Below are positions 1 through 32,823 of a stretch of 32,823 nt of DNA, one piece after another. Within the stretch, counting starts at the first letter, position 1. The number at the start of each line of letters is the position of its first letter. Source of the stretch: Thiotrichales bacterium (GTDB lineage Bacteria; Pseudomonadota; Gammaproteobacteria; GCF-002020875); NCBI GenBank assembly GCA_018658305.1, contig JABHVM010000044.1:1-32823 (forward strand). Reading direction: 5' to 3'. Under the pieces are notes generated by a model that saw only the letters and a list, made by a program, of their open reading frames with translations, made no database searches and was not told the origin of the DNA. The position numbers were made by a program, and so were the translations under genes.

Positions 1-755
1 CGCTGCTTCAAGAGCTGGAAAATCTCCTCTTCAAAACCAAAATAGCTTCCTAAACTAAAACTAACCTCTGGAAACTGTTCCACCAAAAGCTCCGTTTGGC
101 GCTCTATTCTTTTGATTAAAGTTCCAGTGAATAGATAGTATGGAAGTATAGCAATTCTACTAATTCCACTATTAATCTGCCGTTCTACCGCAGACTCTAA
201 ACGAGGGTTGGTAATTCCTGTAAAGGCAAGATCAACCTGCTCAACCATTCCCATTTCAAAAAGCCAACGACTCAGCATTGCCATCTCTCCATTTGCCTGA
301 CGATCAGATGATCCTCGCGCCAATACGATTGCGCCTGTTTTTCTGGGGTCTGGAAAATAGAGATCTTTTAATGCGCTCCGTAGAGAGCGGATCATTATAG
401 ATAAAATTTCATCATTTACCCCAAGATGTTTTGCATACTGAAATTTAGTATTCGGATATTTTTTAGTAGCCGCTTCTATAAATTCTGGAATCTCCTCTTT
501 GACATGTCCTGCCGCATTTAGAATCAAGGGGACAACTGTAACACAATCTGCCTTTTCTGCTGCCTTCTCTAACCCTTCAGCAATTAATGGTGTTGCTAGC
601 TCTATAAAACAGAGATCGATATCCCATTGCGCATTCTTCTGCTGCCACTGCTGACTAAACTCTCTTATCTCTTGGTTACCAGCCTCATTGCGTGAACCAT
701 GCCCAACCAACAATATTCGACTCTTACTCATAACTTGACTCATAGTTTTACTCAT
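1..755 (-). CDS. cbiX: Sirohydrochlorin cobaltochelatase CbiX, long two-domain form (partial, runs off left edge)
   Basis: Inserts Co2+ into sirohydrochlorin, the first committed step of early-cobalt-insertion (anaerobic-type) cobalamin synthesis. I translated it from the minus strand: about 251 residues are visible and the 3' end lies outside the window. The first domain has the GHGSR motif (His19) and the AAGHVKEEIP metal-site motif (His84). A second homologous domain follows, with ARGSSD and an LPYYLFTG segment, as in the long CbiX class; its first motif lacks the histidine. The start is uncertain: ATG at 755, 743 or 731, because the 5' end reads MSKTMSQVMSKS, a near-repeat of one 12-nt unit. 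It begins 10 nt after the cobM/cbiF stop and is the last visible gene of the B12-riboswitch operon. A plain ferrochelatase-type SirB is a less likely reading. Confidence 0.88.
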   Translation of the reverse strand, partial: MSKTMSQVMSKSRILLVGHGSRNEAGNQEIREFSQQWQQKNAQWDIDLCFIELATPLIAEGLEKAAEKADCVTVVPLILNAAGHVKEEIPEFIEAATKKYPNTKFQYAKHLGVNDEILSIMIRSLRSALKDLYFPDPRKTGAIVLARGSSDRQANGEMAMLSRWLFEMGMVEQVDLAFTGITNPRLESAVERQINSGISRIAILPYYLFTGTLIKRIERQTELLVEQFPEVSFSLGSYFGFEEEIFQLLKQ

Positions 756-765
756 AATGTTAATC

Positions 766-1545
766 TCACTTTTCTACTTTACGAAAACGGTGCTGAAACT
801 CTGGATCATACAACTTTGATTTTTTGAGCTCTTGCCAATCTCTTGAGCCTAGAGTTGGACTCACTACAATCATCGCCTGTGATCCAATTTTTTCAGCTCT
901 ACATAGCTCTCGAATGTCACTCAATTTACCTCGCACAACCTTCTCCTCACCAGGCCAGCTCGCTTTCTGTACAACTAGCACAGGGCTATCTACTGCCCAT
1001 CCTGCTGCTGCCAAATCATCCTGAACTTTTTTTAGTAGAGTGATGGAGAGGAAGATACAGATTGTTGTGTGGTGGGATGCGAGCTCAACGAGTGACTCGC
1101 CCTCTGGCATAGGGGTACGCCCCTCAACTCTAGTTAAAATGACCGTCTGAGTCACCTCTGGCAGAGTTAGGGTCTCTACTCCTGCTGCCACCGATGCCAT
1201 TGCTGAGGAGACTCCAGGTACGACTGCAACTTCTATGTTCGCACGATCCAATGGCTGCACCATCTCAATCAGTGCTCCATACAAGCTTGGATCTCCCGTC
1301 TGCAGGCGCACAACCGTCTCACAACTCTCTGCCTGTTCAATCAGCCAATCCGTTATTTCAGTTAAGGTCATCCCTTTAGAATCTTGAATCTTGCAACTCT
1401 CACTTGCCCAGCGCATAGCTGCCTCTGAGACTAATGAGCCTGCGAATAGAATCGCGCCAGCCCGCTCTACTAAGGAACGACCTTTAACTGTTATTAACTC
1501 AGGATCACCAGGACCAGCCCCTACAAACCATACCTTTCCTCTCAA
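766..1545 (-). CDS. cobM: (Cobalt-)precorrin-4 C11-methyltransferase CobM/CbiF
   Basis: SAM-dependent methylation of C-11 of precorrin-4 or cobalt-precorrin-4 in corrin ring synthesis, in the cytoplasm. The 259-residue length fits the family. Near the N terminus it carries the tetrapyrrole-methylase signature GAGPGDPELITVKG, and around residue 83 the GDPSLYGA motif of the SAM pocket; VVPGVSS follows. The ATG overlaps the cobO stop by 4 nt (ATGA), so the two are translationally coupled. The neighbouring CbiX inserts cobalt early, so the physiological substrate is probably cobalt-precorrin-4, and cbiF would be the equivalent name. Sequence alone does not separate the two names. Confidence 0.93.
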   Translation of the reverse strand: MRGKVWFVGAGPGDPELITVKGRSLVERAGAILFAGSLVSEAAMRWASESCKIQDSKGMTLTEITDWLIEQAESCETVVRLQTGDPSLYGALIEMVQPLDRANIEVAVVPGVSSAMASVAAGVETLTLPEVTQTVILTRVEGRTPMPEGESLVELASHHTTICIFLSITLLKKVQDDLAAAGWAVDSPVLVVQKASWPGEEKVVRGKLSDIRELCRAEKIGSQAMIVVSPTLGSRDWQELKKSKLYDPEFQHRFRKVEK

Positions 1546-5249: not shown

Positions 5250-6203
5250 ATGGACAGCAGTAATGGCTTAAATAGAGAGAGCAGAGATGAGTTGCTCTTA
5301 GAAATTCGCAAAACAGTTAAGAGTGAAGTTAAGCGCGGGATGCGCCGAAAGAGTTGGTTAAAAAATATTCTCTATATGGTGATAGCGGGATACTTAACTC
5401 TTCTGATGCTAGTCTCTGCTGGAGTAGTTGAGTATATAGATCCAGAAGAGCGGATTGCATTAATAAAAATAAAAGGGGTTATTAGTAGCGAAACTGTGAA
5501 TAGCGCAGATATCTTGAATCCTGAAATTCGTTCTGCTCTAAAAGATAAGAGAGTTAAACATTTAGTGCTCCAACTGAACTCACCTGGAGGAACTCCTGCG
5601 CAGGCAGAGAGAATTTGGCAGGCTATACGAGCGGCAAAACAGGAGTATCCAGATAAGAAAATTATTGTGACTATTGATGAACTCTGTGCCTCAGCTTGCT
5701 ACTATATCGCCAGTGCTGCAGATGAGATTCACGCCACCAAAGTATCTCTCATAGGATCAATTGGCGTGCGCATGGGAGGATTTGGTTTTGTCGATGCGAT
5801 GAGAGAGCTCGGTATTGAGCAGCGCGAACTGACCGCCGGTGAATTTAAAGCACTACTTGATCCATTCTCTCCGCGCAATGAAGAGGCGGATAAATTCTTA
5901 AAAGAGCATATCCTAACCGTCACTCACAACATATTTATAGATAGAGTTAAGAGTGGGCGTGGTGAGCTCCTTACTACTGAGACCGATCTTTTTAACGGCT
6001 TGATTTGGGCTGGAGAAGAGGCTAAGGAGCTTGGCTTAACTGACGGTTTTCTCTCATCTTATGAGATAGCTAAAGCAGAGGGGGTTGAGAATATAGTTGA
6101 CTACACTCCAAAGATTGATCTATTTGAACAGTACGCCAATCAACTTGCTACCTCACTTAGCTCTGCTTGGCATCAAGTTCGTTCCAGTTATCTAGTACTA
6201 TAA
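5250..6203 (+). CDS. sppA: S49-family signal peptide peptidase (SppA-like, short form)
   Basis: Membrane-anchored serine/lysine peptidase that degrades cleaved signal peptides or membrane-protein fragments on the outer face of the inner membrane. The 317-residue length matches the short, single-domain form. There is one transmembrane helix at about residues 38-58. The protease core shows LQLNSPGGTP (109-116), the nucleophile Ser148 in CASACYYIASAAD, SLIGSIGV (166-173) and the probable general base Lys200 in TAGEFKALLDPFS. AGAAGAG lies about 9-15 nt before the ATG. The gene ends 9 nt before the convergent ubiX stop. The SohB branch of the family is an alternative name. Confidence 0.87.
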   Translation: MDSSNGLNRESRDELLLEIRKTVKSEVKRGMRRKSWLKNILYMVIAGYLTLLMLVSAGVVEYIDPEERIALIKIKGVISSETVNSADILNPEIRSALKDKRVKHLVLQLNSPGGTPAQAERIWQAIRAAKQEYPDKKIIVTIDELCASACYYIASAADEIHATKVSLIGSIGVRMGGFGFVDAMRELGIEQRELTAGEFKALLDPFSPRNEEADKFLKEHILTVTHNIFIDRVKSGRGELLTTETDLFNGLIWAGEEAKELGLTDGFLSSYEIAKAEGVENIVDYTPKIDLFEQYANQLATSLSSAWHQVRSSYLVL

Positions 6204-10173: not shown

Positions 10174-11508
10174 TTATAGTATGTATCGACTTAGATCTTC
10201 ATTCTCTGCTAACTCTGATAACGAATCTTTAACATAGCTAGAATCAATTACTATCTTATCACCAGAACGATCCGATGCCTCAAATGATATATCTTCTAGT
10301 AGACGCTCCATCACTGTATGCAATCTTCGTGCGCCGATATTTTCAGTATTCTCATTTACTTGCCATGAGAACTCTGCAATTTGGTGAATTCCATCTTCAG
10401 CAAAACTTAACTCAACACCATCTGTCTTCATTAATGCTACATACTGCTCGGTTAAAGATGCATCTGGTTCGGATAGAATACTCTTGAAGTCATCAACACT
10501 CAACGCTTTTAGCTCAACTCTAATTGGCAGCCTACCTTGCAACTCAGGAATAAGATCAGACGGCTTAGAGAGATGAAATGCTCCAGAGGCGATGAATAGA
10601 ATATGGTCTGTTTTAATCATTCCATATTTTGTACTGACTGTACTTCCCTCAACTAGAGGTAATAGATCTCGTTGCACCCCTTCGCGCGACACCTCTCCTC
10701 CGCTTGATCCTTCACTGCGTCTTGCAACTTTATCTATCTCATCTAAAAAAACTATTCCGTTCTGCTCCACACTCTCAACTGCTCGATGCTTAATATCCTC
10801 ATCATCAACCATTTTGTGCGACTCCTCTTCAACAAGAAGTTTGAGTGCATTTGAGATCTGCATTTTTTTAGCCTTAGCTGGACGATCTCCCATTCCCTGA
10901 AAAATATTCTGGAGCTGTGAAGTCATCTCTTCCATTCCTGGAGGCCCCATAATCTCAACTCCAACAGTTGGTGATGCTATATCGATCTCTATCTCCTTTT
11001 CATCAAGATCACCCTCGCGTAATTTTTTACGGAACTTCTGCCTCGTAGCAGACTCTTTTTCGACAACTTCATCGCCTTCATCTGCGCCACGCCGTGGTGG
11101 AATTAAGACATCAAGAATTCGATCTTCCGCAGCATCTTCGGCACGACTACGCACCCCATTCACTGCCTGCTCGCGCACTCGCTTAATTGCAATATCTGCA
11201 AGGTCACGAATAATAGAGTCTACATCACGACCCACATATCCAACCTCAGTAAATTTAGTTGCCTCTACTTTTATAAACGGAGCATTAGATAGGCGTGCTA
11301 GACGACGAGCTATCTCTGTTTTCCCAACTCCAGTAGGTCCAATCATCAGAATATTTTTAGGAGTTATCTCTGGGCGTAACTCCTCAGAGACCTGCATTCT
11401 ACGCCAGCGGTTACGCAGCGCAATCGCTACTGCTCGCTTTGCATCATCTTGTCCAATAATATGTTTATTTAGTTCTTTAACAATCTGTTTCGGGGTTAAC
11501 TCACTCAC
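10174..11508 (-). CDS. hslU: HslU, ATPase subunit of the HslUV protease
   Basis: AAA+ unfoldase that feeds proteins into the HslV peptidase. The 444-residue length matches the family. The Walker A motif GPTGVGKT is at 57-64, [15 protein letters not shown] at 82-96 (pore GYVG loop), and Walker B FLDEID at 254-259. The charged intermediate I domain lies at about 110-240. The C-terminal tail DLSRYIL is the docking peptide that inserts into HslV. Its ATG overlaps the hslV stop by 4 nt. Confidence 0.98.
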
Positions 11509-12053
11509 TTATTTTTTCCTTTTAACTCTTCTGTTACTAAGCTTCGATTAGTAAAAACACAGATGTCTGCCGCTATATCCATACTCTTCTCAACAATCTT
11601 TTGAGGAGTCATTTTACTATTTTCTAATAGAGATCGTGCTGCAGCTAGTGCATAGTTACCACCAGACCCGATAGCTATAGCTCCATGTTCTGGCTCTATA
11701 ACATCACCGTTACCTGTAATTACTAGAGTCTCATTCTCATCTGCCACCAAGAGCAGAGCTTCTAATTTCCGCAATATTCGATCTGTACGCCAATCTTTAG
11801 CCAGCTCAACAGCAGAGCGCACCATATGTCCAGAGTACTTCTCGAGCTTACCTTCAAAGCGCTCAATCAAGGTAAATGCATCTGCCGTGCCTCCAGCAAA
11901 ACCAGCTATAACCTTATCATGATAGAGACGACGAATTTTTCGGGCATTACCTTTCATCACGGTATTCCCCATTGAGACCTGTCCATCACCACCTATTACC
12001 ACATGGTTGCCGCGCCGCACGCAGAGAATTGTTGTACCGTGATACTGCTCCAT
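11505..12053 (-). CDS. hslV: HslV, peptidase subunit of the HslUV protease
   Basis: N-terminal-nucleophile threonine peptidase that forms the dodecameric core of HslUV. Here Thr7 in [14 protein letters not shown] would become Thr1 after loss of a six-residue propeptide. [23 protein letters not shown] and [13 protein letters not shown] are family signatures. The protein is 182 residues. AAGGA lies 5 nt before the ATG. I see no clear sigma32-type heat-shock promoter upstream, although hslVU is heat-induced in E. coli. The 170 nt upstream hold the terminator of the next gene. Confidence 0.98.
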
Positions 12054-12163
12054 ACATTTTATTCCTTAAATGATTTTTTATCTATTTTACAGCTTCTACT
12101 AGAGACTATCTACTACCAGATATCAGTTACTAGAACTCTTTAATTAAAAGTGCATTCTACAGC

Positions 12164-12201
12164 AAAAGAGCGGCGACTCCCAGATGGAAGTGCGCCGCTC
12201 T
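12164..12201 (-). terminator. Rho-independent terminator of the 61-residue orphan gene
   Basis: A perfect 9-bp inverted repeat (AGAGCGGCG at 12167-12175, CGCCGCTCT at 12193-12201) with a 17-nt loop is followed on the minus strand by TTTT (12164-12167). It lies 22 nt past the stop codon at 12223 and isolates that gene from hslV. Confidence 0.85.
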
Positions 12202-12222
12202 CTATTTTCAAGTAAAGCTAAG

Positions 12223-12408
12223 TTACGCTCTACGATCTACCACTACATCGTACGCCCCAGATTTTTTCATACTATGGATAAATGCTTTGGTGGTATTAAC
12301 ATTCCACCCTATCTCACATTCATGCGATGTTCCACCAATCGCCTCGTCAGCTTTTTTTCTTGCAGCTACCAATCTTTTATCCATATCAACTCTTGATAAA
12401 AATTCCAT
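12223..12408 (-). CDS. Orphan small protein, 61 residues, unknown function
   Basis: I do not recognise this protein. It begins MEFLSRVDMDKRL and is charged, with a likely helix (DKRLVAARKKADEA), then GGTSHECEIGWNVNTT and a basic tail. There is one cysteine and no membrane segment. I chose the ATG at 12408 because AAAGGAG (12415-12421) precedes it by 6 nt. The longer open frame to 12483 would begin upstream of the predicted transcription start at about 12468. The gene has its own promoter and a strong terminator, so it looks like a real monocistronic unit rather than a chance ORF. Confidence 0.7.
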   Translation of the reverse strand: MEFLSRVDMDKRLVAARKKADEAIGGTSHECEIGWNVNTTKAFIHSMKKSGAYDVVVDRRA

Positions 12409-14435: not shown

Positions 14436-15428
14436 CTAGTCTCTACGCGGTTTCTTGTTAGATTTTTGTGCTTTAATTTGTGCTCTAGGGTGAGCCTTGT
14501 CATAGACTGCAGCTAAATGTTGAAAATCTAAATTAGTATATACTTGAGTAGTGGTTATATTTTCATGCCCCAACATCTCCTGTACTGCGCGCAGATTTCC
14601 GCTAGACTCTAGAATATGGGTAGCAAAAGAGTGACGGAGAATGTGAGGATGAATGTGACTCTCTAGCCCACGATCTTTTCCAATTTTATCTAAACGCTGT
14701 TGAATAGTTCTGTGTGCAATCCTTCCTCCTCGCTTACTTACAAACAGCGCCTGCTCACCGTCATCAGCTAACTCATCTCGCACCTCAAGCCATCGCTCTA
14801 TAGCCAGTTGCGCTTTCTCTCCCACTGGCACTTCACGCTCTTTATTACCTTTACCCAACACCCTCACTATACCGCTATGGATGCTATTAACAACATCCAG
14901 ATCAATACGAGCCAACTCAGCAAGACGCAGTCCAGATGAGTATAGTAGCTCAAACATTGCGAGATCTCTCAGTAGAAGATGCTCCAAATTTGATTCGCCA
15001 TTGCTTGATTTAGAAGTAGATTCAGATGATGGATAGTGAAGCAGACTCTCTAGTTGGTCTGCATCTAGAGTTGAGGGAAGTGGTCGCTCGCCTTTAGGAG
15101 ATAAAACCCCAACTGCTGGATTATGATCCATCAGCTGCTCTCGAATGAAATATATATAGAGTGAACGAATAGCAGATAAATTACGCTGAATTGAGCGGCT
15201 ACCAATTCCTAAACGGTGGCGGTGAGCTACGAAGCCACGAATTTGGTTGGAGCTACACTCTATTACCTTTAATCCATTCTCACTCTTAATAAGATAGTTG
15301 CAAAAATTATCAAGATCACGACGATATGCCGCTATAGTGTGTTGAGAGAGTCCCCGTTCGGCGGCACCGAGATGCTCTATAAATTTACTTAACCACTCAC
15401 TCTCCAACTCACTTTTTAGCATACACAT
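14436..15428 (-). CDS. xerC: Tyrosine recombinase XerC
   Basis: Site-specific recombinase that with XerD resolves chromosome dimers at dif. The catalytic set is complete: Arg168 (SSGLRLAEL), Lys193, His262 and Arg265 (HPHILRHSF), His288 (LGHENI), Tyr297 (QVYTNL). At 330 residues it is longer than the usual ~300, owing to a Ser-rich insertion at about 134-149 and a basic tail. The first ATG (15428) overlaps the DUF484 stop by 20 nt; ATG at 15422 is an alternative. The DUF484 neighbour, the order and the N terminus all favour XerC over XerD. Confidence 0.95.
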   Translation of the reverse strand: MCMLKSELESEWLSKFIEHLGAAERGLSQHTIAAYRRDLDNFCNYLIKSENGLKVIECSSNQIRGFVAHRHRLGIGSRSIQRNLSAIRSLYIYFIREQLMDHNPAVGVLSPKGERPLPSTLDADQLESLLHYPSSESTSKSSNGESNLEHLLLRDLAMFELLYSSGLRLAELARIDLDVVNSIHSGIVRVLGKGNKEREVPVGEKAQLAIERWLEVRDELADDGEQALFVSKRGGRIAHRTIQQRLDKIGKDRGLESHIHPHILRHSFATHILESSGNLRAVQEMLGHENITTTQVYTNLDFQHLAAVYDKAHPRAQIKAQKSNKKPRRD

Positions 15429-16089: not shown

Positions 16090-16919
16090 AACTCTATAAC
16101 CCCTTCAAATACGCTCTCTGCTGGACCACTCATCATTACTGATGACCCTGAATATCCATCCCACTCTATCTCAAGAGTTCCACCCTGTAGCTCTACGGTT
16201 ACACTTGTACAGAGCAAGTCTTGCTGAATTCCTGAGACCACAGCAGCACAGGCTCCTGTTCCACAAGCTAGAGTCTCCCCTACCCCTCGCTCATATACCC
16301 GAAGCTTAATTCTGCCTGACGACTCTATCTGCATAAACCCGACATTAACTCGCCGTGGAAAATCTGGGTGTGACTCTAGTTTAGGGCCTAACTTTTCAAC
16401 AATTTCATCATTAAAATTATCTACTGTTAATACTAAATGAGGATTACCCATTGAGACAGCACCTATCTGCAACTCTTCTTCATCTTGTTTTATAGTGTAC
16501 TGAACAGCCTGCTGATCAGCTAAAAATGGTATTTTTTCTGGCTCTAAAATTGGTGCGCCCATATCAACCGTAACCAAACCATCTTTCCGCAGCTGTAACA
16601 CAATTACACCACTTGCGGTCTCAACTCTGATTCTATCTTTTTTGGTCAAGCCTTGCTCTTGTACAAACTTAGCGAAACAGCGCGCCCCATTCCCACACTG
16701 CTCAACCTCACCCCCATCTTGATTCCATATTCTATAGCGAAAATCACACTCTCCATTCTCAGCAGCCTCAACTAATAAAAGCTGATCACACCCAACTCCA
16801 AAATGGCGATCTGCAATAAACTTTACATCTTTTGCAGTTGGTTCATAGCCAGTCTTAATTCCGTTAATGACTACAAAGTCATTACCAAGTCCATGCATCT
16901 TGGTAAATGGCAGTATCAC
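16086..16919 (-). CDS. dapF: Diaminopimelate epimerase DapF
   Basis: Converts LL- to meso-diaminopimelate, used for peptidoglycan and as the direct precursor of lysine. The 277-residue protein shows both catalytic cysteines: Cys75 in EQCGNGARCF and Cys219 in LACGTGACAA. MHGLGNDFVV at the N terminus is typical. It is coupled by a 4-nt overlap to lysA upstream, which consumes its product. Confidence 0.98.
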   Translation of the reverse strand: MILPFTKMHGLGNDFVVINGIKTGYEPTAKDVKFIADRHFGVGCDQLLLVEAAENGECDFRYRIWNQDGGEVEQCGNGARCFAKFVQEQGLTKKDRIRVETASGVIVLQLRKDGLVTVDMGAPILEPEKIPFLADQQAVQYTIKQDEEELQIGAVSMGNPHLVLTVDNFNDEIVEKLGPKLESHPDFPRRVNVGFMQIESSGRIKLRVYERGVGETLACGTGACAAVVSGIQQDLLCTSVTVELQGGTLEIEWDGYSGSSVMMSGPAESVFEGVIEL

Positions 16920-18226
16920 TCAACACCTCTATCAATTACATGCTCGCCTGCAAAAAGTGATTCGATACTCTCGCGCTCGCGCACCACCCAGTGCTTATCT
17001 CCAGACACCATAATCTCTGCAGCACGAGGGCGCGAATTGTAAGTTGAGCTCATTGCAAAACCGTAAGCTCCTGATGAGAGAACTGCAAGCAGATCACCCT
17101 CTTCCACATTAAGCTTTCGATCTTTACCAAGAAAATCTCCAGTCTCACAGATTGGCCCGACTAGATCATAAACTTGCGCACCGTGACTCTCTAGATTGAC
17201 TCCAGAGCTGCGTTCCTCAACCACTACAATATTCTGCCATGCTTGATAGAGAGCAGGTCGAATCAAGTCATTCATCGCGCCATCGACTATACAGAAGTTC
17301 TTCTCCTCACCCTTCTTAATAAATTCAACTCTAGTCAACATCACCCCTGCATTACCAACCATCGCTCGCCCAGGCTCCATAATTATCTCTAAGCTTCGCC
17401 CAGCCAACTTTGCTGTAACCCTCTGCACATACTCAGCAGGTAGCGGTGGATTATCATTTTTGTAATCTATTCCCAAACCACCACCAACATCTATATGGTG
17501 GAGCTCTATACCCACCTCACTTAATTGATCTACTAACAATAGAACTCGATCCAGCGCATCTTCAAAAGGGGAGAGAGAGGTAAGTTGAGATCCTATGTGA
17601 CAATCTATTCCAACAATATTTAGATTGGACATAGTTGCTGCTCTACGGTAGACCTCCAATGCTTGCTCAATAGCGATACCAAATTTATTGGAGCGCAGGC
17701 CGGTAGAGATATATGGATGAGTTCCAGCATCTACATCTGGATTTACGCGCAGAGATATCGGAGCGTTAATGCCCATCTCAGCAGCTACACGGTTGACTCG
17801 CTCTAACTCTGATTCGGACTCAATGTTAAAACAGCGAATCCCGACCTCTAGCGCACGCTTTATCTCAATAGCTTTTTTGCCAACTCCAGAGAATACTACT
17901 TTACCCGCCTCACCACCTGCCTTTAGGACTCGTTCAAGCTCACCAACCGAGACAATATCAAATCCTGCTCCCTGTTCTGCTAGTAGCGCAAGGATTGCAA
18001 GATTGGAGTTTGCTTTTACTGCATAACAGATTAGATGATCTTCGCCATTAAAGCCGCTCTCAAATGCCTCCCACTGCTTCCTAATTGAGGATTCAGAGTA
18101 GACAAAAAGAGGGGTTGAGTGCTGTTCAGCAAGTTGTGTTAAAGGGATATCTTCCGCATAGAGTAAACCATCTCGACGCTCAAAAAATTTGCTCATACCT
18201 GATTCGGTTATTACTGTTGTTCTCAT
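16916..18226 (-). CDS. lysA: Diaminopimelate decarboxylase LysA
   Basis: PLP enzyme for the last step of lysine synthesis (meso-DAP to lysine plus CO2). The PLP lysine is Lys71 in YAVKANSN; HIGSQ, the glycine-rich GGGLGI and CETGD active-site motifs follow in order. The protein has 436 residues from the ATG at 18226. An internal ATG at 18196 (MSKFFERRDG) gives a start closer to family length, so the first ten residues are doubtful. It follows the LptM-like lipoprotein gene after about 90 nt. Confidence 0.97.
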   Translation of the reverse strand: MRTTVITESGMSKFFERRDGLLYAEDIPLTQLAEQHSTPLFVYSESSIRKQWEAFESGFNGEDHLICYAVKANSNLAILALLAEQGAGFDIVSVGELERVLKAGGEAGKVVFSGVGKKAIEIKRALEVGIRCFNIESESELERVNRVAAEMGINAPISLRVNPDVDAGTHPYISTGLRSNKFGIAIEQALEVYRRAATMSNLNIVGIDCHIGSQLTSLSPFEDALDRVLLLVDQLSEVGIELHHIDVGGGLGIDYKNDNPPLPAEYVQRVTAKLAGRSLEIIMEPGRAMVGNAGVMLTRVEFIKKGEEKNFCIVDGAMNDLIRPALYQAWQNIVVVEERSSGVNLESHGAQVYDLVGPICETGDFLGKDRKLNVEEGDLLAVLSSGAYGFAMSSTYNSRPRAAEIMVSGDKHWVVRERESIESLFAGEHVIDRGVE

Positions 18227-29505: not shown

Positions 29506-30243
29506 TTAACGCAACGCAAGAATAGATACAAAGTTAAGTGCCTGAAAGATTACCTGCACCCTGTTAAATCCTACTTTATGCAGACGCTCTATATGTCTCT
29601 CTACAGTCTCGCTTACTAACACATCCTCTAGCGCACTGCGTTTCTGACTAATCTCCATCTCACTATATCCATTAGCGCGTTTAAATGAGTGGTGCAGATT
29701 ATTGATTCTCTGTTGCTGTTCTGGATCATTAAAATTTATCTTCTCAGAGAGCATAAATGCTCCTCCAGCGTTAATGCCTGTTGCGATCTTATGCAGTATA
29801 GCTTCTCTTTCAGCAAGTGGAATAAATTGGAGAGTAAAGTTCATAATAACTAATGATGCATTCTCAACTGTAGTATCACGCAGATCTTCACAACGCAGCT
29901 CAACTGGGTATCCCGTACTAAAGGATTTTCTACACTGCTCAACCATAGCAGTAGAGTTATCAACAGCCACCAACTCACAATCTCGCTCCTCCGCAATTTT
30001 ACGCATAGCTAGAGTGGCTCCTCCCAGTGATGTACCAAGATCATATCCTCTACTCTGCTCTTGGAGATAGGTCTCTGCCAACACTCCAACTAATGACAAC
30101 ACCATTCCGTAACCAGGAACAGAGCGGCTAATCATATCTTCAAAAACCCCAACCACCTCTTTATCAAAACGAAAATTCTCAATCAGATCGTGGGTGTGGC
30201 TATAGATGGAATCTCTCTTCACTCTCTTTTGTAACTCCTGCAC
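29506..30243 (-). CDS. cmoA: CmoA, carboxy-S-adenosyl-L-methionine synthase
   Basis: Makes carboxy-SAM from SAM and prephenate for the neighbouring CmoB. The 245-residue protein has FRFDKEVVGVFEDMISRSVPGY near the N terminus, the SAM motif YDLGTSLGGATLAMRKI, VAVDNSTAMVEQC, and NFTLQFIPLAERE. The start overlaps the prlC stop by one base (TAATG). Order prlC-cmoA-cmoB with no gaps implies one transcript. Confidence 0.96.
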   Translation of the reverse strand: MQELQKRVKRDSIYSHTHDLIENFRFDKEVVGVFEDMISRSVPGYGMVLSLVGVLAETYLQEQSRGYDLGTSLGGATLAMRKIAEERDCELVAVDNSTAMVEQCRKSFSTGYPVELRCEDLRDTTVENASLVIMNFTLQFIPLAEREAILHKIATGINAGGAFMLSEKINFNDPEQQQRINNLHHSFKRANGYSEMEISQKRSALEDVLVSETVERHIERLHKVGFNRVQVIFQALNFVSILALR

Positions 30244-32288
30244 TAATTAATTCCTGAATGTCGTAGCAGTGCATCTATCTGAGGCTCACGCCCACGGAAC
30301 TCTATAAAGAGCTCCATCGGATCGCGCGCTCCACCCTGCTCTAAGATTGAAGATAAGAAACGCAACCCCGCTTCTTTATCAAAAATTCCGCTCTCTTCAA
30401 AACTTGAGAATGCGTCTGAACTCAACACCTCAGCCCATTTGTAACTGTAATATCCTGCAGCATAACCGCCTGCGAAGATGTGGGAGAAGCTGTGAGGAAA
30501 GCGGTTAAAAGATGGAGGAGACATTACGGAAACTGATTCTCTGACCTCGTCCAGCACCTCATATATTGCTCTTTTAGGATTAAGGTGAATCTTAAAATCG
30601 AAGAGCGAAAACTCTAACTGACGCACCATCACCATCCCCGATTGAAAATTACGCGATGCAAGCAGCTGCTCAAACTTATCTTGCGGCAGCGGATCTCCAC
30701 TCTGATAGTGCCCTGAAAATAGAGGGAGCGCCTCCTCTTGCCAACACCAGTTCTCCATAAATTGGCTCGGTAACTCTACCGCATCCCACGGAACCCCTGC
30801 AATTCCAGAGATGCTTGGAAAATCTATCTGAGTCAACATATGGTGTAGCCCATGCCCAAGCTCGTGAAAAAGTGTTAACACTTCATCGTGTGTCAACAGT
30901 GCGGGATCGTCCCCCAGTGGTGGAGTGAAGTTACAGGTGAGGTAGGCAACTGGAATTTGCACGCCTAAATCTGTTTTGTGACGAGTAACACAATCGTCCA
31001 TCCACGCTCCTCCCCGTTTATGTTGACGAGAGTAGAGGTCTGTATAGAACTCTCCACGCACCTCTCCGATCTCATCAGTAATACGGAAAAATTGAACACT
31101 CTGTTCCCAGACATCAACACCATCAATCTGTTTAATATTGATTCCATATAGACGATGCACAATTTCAAACATCCCCTCCATCACTCGCTCAATTGGAAAC
31201 CACGGTTTCAGCTCCTCTTCCGACAAACTGTAACGATCCTGTTTAAGTTTTTCTGAATAGTAGGCAACATCCCACGCCTGGAGCTCATCAACCGTAGCAA
31301 AATCTCGCAACTCTTGTAACTCAGCTTTTGCCACCATCAAAGAGCGATCTGCTAGATCTTCTAAAAAAGAGAGCACCTGCTCTGAAGAGTCTGCCATTTT
31401 AGTTGAGAGCGAATACTCGGCATAATTGGCAAATCCCAAGAGCTCTGCTTTCTCTTGGCGCAATTTACGAATCTCCTCCATAACTGGAGTATTATCAAAT
31501 TTAATATCATGTGGACCTTGATCTGAAGCACGAGTCACAAATGCTTCATAGAGTTCTGCCCGCAACTCACGGTTATCCGCATAGGTCATCACCGCAATAT
31601 AGGATGGAAAATCTAAAGTAAAGAGCCAACCATCTTCACCCTCCTCTATCTTCTCTCGCTCCTCCGCACTCTGCCGAGCCTGCGCCTTAGCAGAGTCTGA
31701 CAGCCCCACGAGCAATGACTCATCTCGAACAAGTTTTTCCCAGCTATTGGTAGCGTCTAAAACATTCTCCCCAAATTTTGAGGTGAGCTTAGAGAGCTCT
31801 TGGCTTATTTCACGATAACGCTCCTGCTCGGCTGGTTGTAGATCAATCCCCGAAAGGTGAAAATCTCGTAGAGCATTCTCAATAATTTTTTTCTGCGATG
31901 GCTCCAACATCCGAAACTTTTTACTCTCAGAGATATTTTGAAACAGCGTATAGAGCCCCTTATGTTGCCCCATCTCAGTTGCGTAATCAGAGAGCAGTGG
32001 AAGCACCTCATTATAAGCATCTCGCAACTCTGGACTATTCTTAACAGAATTAAGATGACTAACTGGCGACCAAGCGCGCCCGAGTTTATCCTCCATTGTC
32101 TCTAACGGCTGAATCACACTGTCCCAATCTGCCTCAACCTCACTGCTCAACAACTGTTCCACCATAGCACGATTATCTGCCAATAGCGTCTCAATAGCAG
32201 GCTTAACCTGCTCAGGTTTAATTGCCGAAAAATTAGGAAGCCCATCAAGAGCAAGAAGAGGATTATTTAATATAGTATTAGTAGTCAT
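30243..32288 (-). CDS. prlC: Oligopeptidase A (PrlC), M3 family zinc metallopeptidase
   Basis: Cytoplasmic zinc endopeptidase that degrades oligopeptides and cleaved signal peptides. At 681 residues it is almost exactly the E. coli length (680). The zinc site HELGH lies at about residue 470 in LFHELGHGLHHM, with the third-ligand glutamate about 28 residues later (AVELPSQFMENW). It starts MTTNTILNNPLLALDGLPNFSAI, typical of PrlC. No clear Shine-Dalgarno site is visible before the ATG. Confidence 0.97.
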   Translation of the reverse strand: MTTNTILNNPLLALDGLPNFSAIKPEQVKPAIETLLADNRAMVEQLLSSEVEADWDSVIQPLETMEDKLGRAWSPVSHLNSVKNSPELRDAYNEVLPLLSDYATEMGQHKGLYTLFQNISESKKFRMLEPSQKKIIENALRDFHLSGIDLQPAEQERYREISQELSKLTSKFGENVLDATNSWEKLVRDESLLVGLSDSAKAQARQSAEEREKIEEGEDGWLFTLDFPSYIAVMTYADNRELRAELYEAFVTRASDQGPHDIKFDNTPVMEEIRKLRQEKAELLGFANYAEYSLSTKMADSSEQVLSFLEDLADRSLMVAKAELQELRDFATVDELQAWDVAYYSEKLKQDRYSLSEEELKPWFPIERVMEGMFEIVHRLYGINIKQIDGVDVWEQSVQFFRITDEIGEVRGEFYTDLYSRQHKRGGAWMDDCVTRHKTDLGVQIPVAYLTCNFTPPLGDDPALLTHDEVLTLFHELGHGLHHMLTQIDFPSISGIAGVPWDAVELPSQFMENWCWQEEALPLFSGHYQSGDPLPQDKFEQLLASRNFQSGMVMVRQLEFSLFDFKIHLNPKRAIYEVLDEVRESVSVMSPPSFNRFPHSFSHIFAGGYAAGYYSYKWAEVLSSDAFSSFEESGIFDKEAGLRFLSSILEQGGARDPMELFIEFRGREPQIDALLRHSGIN

Positions 32289-32360
32289 AATATAGCTATT
32301 TTACAGCAACTATAAACTTATTATTTAGCAAACATTACAGCTCTCTCATCCGAAACCCAA

Positions 32361-32507
32361 AGGGGGTCAGGTCTTTACTTTTGCACTATACGCTAGTTCA
32401 GTCAGCTATGCTGTTCCACTTCCCTGCTTATAACTAGATTACTCTCATTCAATATTGATACTGTGCTTACCCAATAACCAGAATAAATAAATTGCACTCT
32501 GACCCTA
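32361..32507. mobile_element. Small non-coding element with GGGTCAG inverted ends (MITE- or RAYT-associated-like remnant)
   Basis: GGGTCAG at 32364-32370 is matched by CTGACCC at 32499-32505. The outer sequences extend the similarity: left GGGGGTCAGGTCTTTACTTTTGCA, given here as two parts GGGGGTCAG (32362-32370) and GTCTTTACTTTTGCA (32371-32385); right, reverse-complemented, AGGGTCAGAGTGCAATTT. From memory such ends commonly flank IS200/Y1-type (REP-associated) transposase genes in gammaproteobacteria. The roughly 145 bp here has no ORF, so it would be a non-autonomous or decayed copy. Confidence 0.5.
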
Positions 32508-32623
32508 ATTATTTCTCTACTCCTGAGAATATAAAAAGTCAATTTACAATTATTGATGCATCACACCTCGAAGTTCCTCGGAGCTCTGATGAGGTTCTAG
32601 TTGAATGGTTGCGCAAACAATGA
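32507..32623 (+). pseudogene. 5'-truncated ORF ending two bases before the attC core (possible broken cassette gene)
   Basis: This reading frame is open from 32459 to the TGA at 32621-32623 but has no ATG. The coding-like part reads NYFSTPENIKSQFTIIDA and then SHLEVPRSSDEVLVEWLRKQ. It begins where the GGGTCAG element ends, so the 5' part of a gene seems to have been replaced by the element. The stop lies just at the edge of the attC site, as in integron cassettes. The product is not recognised; a TTG at 32492 is an unconvincing start. Confidence 0.45.
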
Positions 32624-32696
32624 TCTAACAAGGCAATTACAGACCGATCCAAAAACCGCTGCGCGTTTTTTGGGCGGCTGAATTGCGACGTTAGGC
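32623..32696 (+). other. Integron-type attC recombination site
   Basis: R'' box ATCTAAC (32623-32629) fits RYYYAAC; R' box GTTAGGC (32690-32696) fits GTTRRRY. Between them are complementary L boxes, GCAATT (32633-32638) with AATTGC (32681-32686), then an imperfect stem (CAG..CCG with CGG..CTG; CCAAAAA with TTTTTTGG) around the loop CCGCTGCGCG. The length of about 74 bp is within the attC range. It follows directly on an ORF stop, the usual cassette layout. Confidence 0.8.
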
Positions 32697-32823
32697 TTTG
32701 AAAACCAAAAAAATATAAACCGCACAATTATGTTACAATTGATCTTAATTTAAAAACTATAAATAATGCTGAGTTAACTTTCATATTAATTCGATATATT
32801 TATAGATACTTACATTATTTTAG
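32697..32823. other. Sequence beyond attC; no gene seen
   Basis: An AT-rich 127-bp tail. It would be the 5' part of the next cassette if an array continues outside the window. The only ATG-led frame near the attC is seven codons long. Nothing else can be supported. Confidence 0.4.

Follow-up and report, generated by a model that had tools for sequence, protein, structure and literature searches.

An attC site and cassette remnant beside prlC in a Thiotrichales genome, probably part of an integrase-less cassette fragment

At the right end of a contig from a Thiotrichales bacterium, sequence resembling an integron attC site lies close to the chromosomal gene prlC, which raises the question of whether it marks the edge of a complete integron, a single displaced cassette or cassette DNA that has lost its integrase. 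The window analyzed here is the complete contig (C43, 32,823 nucleotides) of a genome (G000) assembled into 96 contigs with a total size of 1.65 Mb and a completeness of 95%. Elsewhere in the window, an Rfam scan returned a cobalamin riboswitch (RF00174, 4477-4666, minus strand, 114.8 bits) as its sole match.

In integrons, attC acts through its bottom strand, which forms a hairpin; the integrase IntI, guided by extrahelical bases, binds the paired R boxes, makes its cut adjacent to the conserved GTT and links the cassette with either attI or a further attC. The first-pass annotation had assigned 32507-32696 to an attC site and a truncated, cassette-like ORF. The attC part of this span stood (32623-32696), whereas 32507-32622 resolved into the tail of a dispersed repeat (to about 32516) and the ORF remnant. 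The R'' and R' boxes are inverted and exactly 60 bp apart, as described in that annotation, which had also recognized matching L boxes and a long imperfect hairpin: the L'' and L' arms are complementary and pair, with the spacers unpaired. Folding as single-stranded DNA favours the bottom strand, at -21.3 kcal/mol (z -5.3, with none of 200 shuffled sequences as good), over the top strand (-18.9 kcal/mol, z -4.1). In the folded bottom strand, the R''/L'' arm has two unpaired T residues, opposite A32639 and A32643, which match the expectation for extrahelical bases and agree with the fold check proposed earlier. For the proposed covariance-model search, a pattern search through other genomes of the class supplied attC sites, their folds were inspected and 23 of them were aligned to build a model without the window's own site. 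This model gave a high score of 43.6 bits with an E-value of 8.4e-10 (the E-values are rough, given a short calibration). Of 100 Markov copies of the window, a single one contained a box pair whose stem was as stable and as long. The site is thus a genuine but ordinary integron attC (Table 1), and it may be active in recombination.

Table 1. Features at the right end of the 32,823-nucleotide window.
Feature	Position	Strand	Basis
prlC (thimet oligopeptidase family, Peptidase_M3), end of conserved chromosomal block	30243..32288	-	Pfam
Dispersed repeat element with GGGGTCAGGTCTTTACTTTTGCA ... TGCACTCTGACCCT ends, truncating the cassette ORF on its 5' side	32359..32516	.	about 20 partial copies in own genome
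Cassette ORF 3' remnant, 36 codons (FSTPENIK...VEWLRKQ) and stop	32513..32623	+	translation
attC site, 74 bp	32623..32696	+	R boxes, paired L arms, fold, covariance model
R'' box ATCTAAC (RYYYAAC)	32623..32629	+	sequence
L'' arm; two A residues face unpaired bottom-strand T's (putative extrahelical bases)	32633..32646	+	fold
Hairpin variable terminal part	32647..32674	+	fold
L' arm	32675..32686	+	fold
R' box GTTAGGC (GTTRRRY)	32690..32696	+	sequence
Putative attC recombination point	between G32690 and T32691	+	R' box
AT-rich stretch 3' of attC, probably start of next cassette; contig end	32697..32823	+	no long frame with start codon

The ORF in front of attC ends at R'', its stop codon (TGA, 32621-32623) sharing its last base with the first base of the box, which bears out the overlap noted from the sequence. 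Upstream it reads open into the repeat without a start codon of its own; the 5' half of the cassette and its left GTT boundary are replaced by the repeat. The contig end therefore holds a cassette remnant and not a whole cassette, in agreement with the truncation first proposed, and no conserved chromosomal gene at this locus includes the ORF. The remnant has no Pfam match of its own. Its best distant match, over about 34 residues (E 0.0016 per genome), is to the C-terminal end of an α/β hydrolase of 260 aa, which weakly suggests that the cassette encoded an enzyme of this type. The cluster shows at least one attC at this end, the contig stopping 127 bp later.

No plasmid record matched positions 32300-32823 at the DNA level or the ORF remnant at the protein level, and an exact pattern search of the genome for the R'/L' arm found no second occurrence beyond the contig-end attC. 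A DNA search of 56 relatives with the contig tail returned just a short chance-like match and a degenerate attC-like stretch. The latter (L135, G050:C9, 983-1045, minus strand) resembles the window's site and has lost its R'' end beside transposase-like sequence.

The repeat that truncates the cassette is probably RAYT-associated, because at contig C22 of the same genome its ends (171-195 and 1066-1092) flank a Y1_Tnp gene (263-580). Like RAYT-associated REP-like repeats, it is a short dispersed element with GGGTCAG-type ends found on both sides of a Y1 transposase gene; unlike them, the copy beside the cassette has no transposase and merely truncates the cassette.

On the other side of the repeat lies prlC, whose orthologues in five congeners are 69-77% identical. 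In four of these genomes (G002, G003, G004 and G005), prlC and the gamma-carbonic-anhydrase-like gene yrdA are directly divergent with little space between them. In the present genome, yrdA is located at the left edge of another contig, C74, with aroE as the next gene, as in G005, and C74 starts within another, different copy of the dispersed repeat. Because prlC and yrdA are adjacent in the congeners and yrdA opens C74, the two contigs flank the same ancestral junction. The boundary to accessory DNA that had been proposed here is thus real: the conserved block stops at prlC, and the gene that normally adjoins it is on a different contig. No read or contig connects C43 with C74, and cassette DNA probably fills the gap that the assembly does not span. 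The 127 bp following attC are unlike the C74 sequence before yrdA, and more than a single cassette therefore separates the two genes.

No protein of the assembly matched the integron-integrase family above the cut-off, the only recombinases being of the Xer type. The sole candidate in the window (14436-15428) scored best as XerC and was rejected as IntI, so that the earlier statement that the window lacks an integrase holds. Among the congeners, four of five carry intI in whole or in part: G002 and G004 have full-length genes, and G001 and G005 have C-terminal pieces located at contig ends. Each is located near a contig end and beside a different chromosomal gene, namely a thioredoxin-like gene and cobalamin (cob) genes in G002 (L191, G002:C13), priA in G004 (L190, G004:C1), the mla operon in G001 (L134, G001:C380) and pyruvate kinase in G005 (L133, G005:C20). 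A loose box-and-fold scan of these integrase contigs detected few sites, because the contigs mostly end at the arrays. On the priA contig of G004, the region at about 10700-12400 also shows frames with recurring peptide-like units (SSPRVWGT / RFIPTGVGNT), of the kind that a CRISPR array typically gives when translated.

The covariance model also detected attC sites elsewhere in the genus. In the same genome, a second site (L186, G000:C20, 136-234, minus strand) stands behind a DUF4136 lipoprotein ORF (241-897, minus strand) at a contig edge, upstream of an HD-GYP/tsaE/mutL/miaA/hfq block, and the following cassette is interrupted where the contig stops. Further sites were found in G001 (C221), G004 (C42) and G003 (C17). 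The G003 locus (L189, G003:C17:50000-56084, 5688-6085) is a complete small cassette adjoining recG, with an 83-aa ORF bounded on one side by GTTAGGC and on the other by an attC that ends in GTTAACC; no intI was found in this 98%-complete genome. In G001 (L187, 2802-3138), an attC with a degenerate R'' follows a DEAD-box helicase gene and is succeeded by a small antitoxin-like ORF.

Between the two options left by the first-pass annotation, an array edge or an attC without integrase, we favour the second. With a probability of roughly 0.7, the contig end is part of an integrase-less (CALIN-like) cassette fragment inside the prlC-yrdA insertion, in a genus that commonly carries integrons. This reading is best because the repeat and prlC occupy the usual integrase side, the left flank of the cassette, and it agrees with the lack of intI in the assembly; the genome as a whole may be truly devoid of the gene. 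The contig edge would then be the 3' end of a cassette, consisting of the last 36 or so codons of an ORF, probably for an α/β hydrolase, and its attC. This cassette was apparently parted from its integrase and damaged, the RAYT-associated repeat having presumably replaced its 5' part, and it most likely lies within the unspanned DNA between prlC and yrdA.

Such an arrangement resembles a CALIN in combining a genuine attC and the end of a cassette ORF with no detected intI, and in its chromosomal position adjoining housekeeping genes, as in Xanthomonas, where about half of the genomes have CALINs at loci away from intI (PMC12444791). It differs in that a single attC is seen before the contig end, under the default minimum of at least two sites that IntegronFinder 2 sets for a CALIN, single sites being accepted as possibly real (PMC9024848). 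Also against an integrase-less fragment, about 5% of the genome is missing, and an intI may exist unassembled or unbinned. With the sedentary chromosomal integrons of Gammaproteobacteria, the locus shares the anatomy of its attC and has congeners with intI and attC sites; it differs from them in that no intI or attI was seen in the genome and the cassette is broken by the repeat.

The same evidence bears on the strongest competing explanation, which has a minor share of the probability: the contig end would be the edge of a complete chromosomal integron, with intI and further cassettes in the missing DNA, rearranged so that intI is off its usual left flank. The frequency of intI among the congeners, mostly at or near contig edges, and the 95% completeness of the genome would accommodate this, as would the tendency of draft assemblies to split integrons at arrays and so to inflate CALIN counts (PMC9024848). 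However, the canonical position of intI is upstream of the first cassette, a flank that is occupied here by the repeat and then by prlC, no intI occurs in the assembly, and at the genome's second attC locus (C20), flank, ORF and attC likewise follow in this order without intI.

It is rather improbable that the contig is chimeric, a multi-copy repeat having joined prlC to a cassette from elsewhere. The junction falls exactly at a repeat with many partial copies, the contig ends soon after attC, and C74, read from yrdA, runs into this repeat as well. Against this, the repeat copies are short and only about 86-97% identical, and the C43 copy differs from that of C74, so that they offer no evident long exact overlap for a misjoin; even in a chimera, the attC would stay genuine.

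Somewhat less probable still is a lone cassette put by an integrase into a non-classical genomic site (attG) outside any array. In the part of PMC12444791 that cites Loot et al. 2024, cassettes are described as integrating at attG sites scattered over genomes, and the intergenic location with no intI nearby would suit such an event. The left junction, which would show the G/TT joint, has nevertheless been replaced by the repeat, leaving no positive evidence, and prlC and yrdA are separated by more than a single cassette.

We consider it slightly more doubtful again that cassettes leave the integron by means of RAYT-associated repeats, the prlC-yrdA insertion being a cassette segment framed by two repeat copies and mobilized as a whole; if true, such a repeat-bounded segment would be a transposon-like, IntI-free route for cassette spread. 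The least credible explanation, that the site arose by chance or is a different hairpin (a terminator or REP) mimicking attC, can appeal to the chance occurrence of degenerate boxes and to a second folded box pair picked by the loose scan at 16918-17049, but nothing else in the window scored above 8.4 bits with the covariance model and related attC sites exist in the same genus and class.

Taken alone, the probable integrase-less cassette fragment contributes a further attC to a class that is already well known. It also illustrates how metagenome assemblies break at cassette arrays and so lose the interesting part, and it records integron cassettes for a gammaproteobacterial genus that has received little study and whose intI-bearing members each have intI next to a different chromosomal gene.
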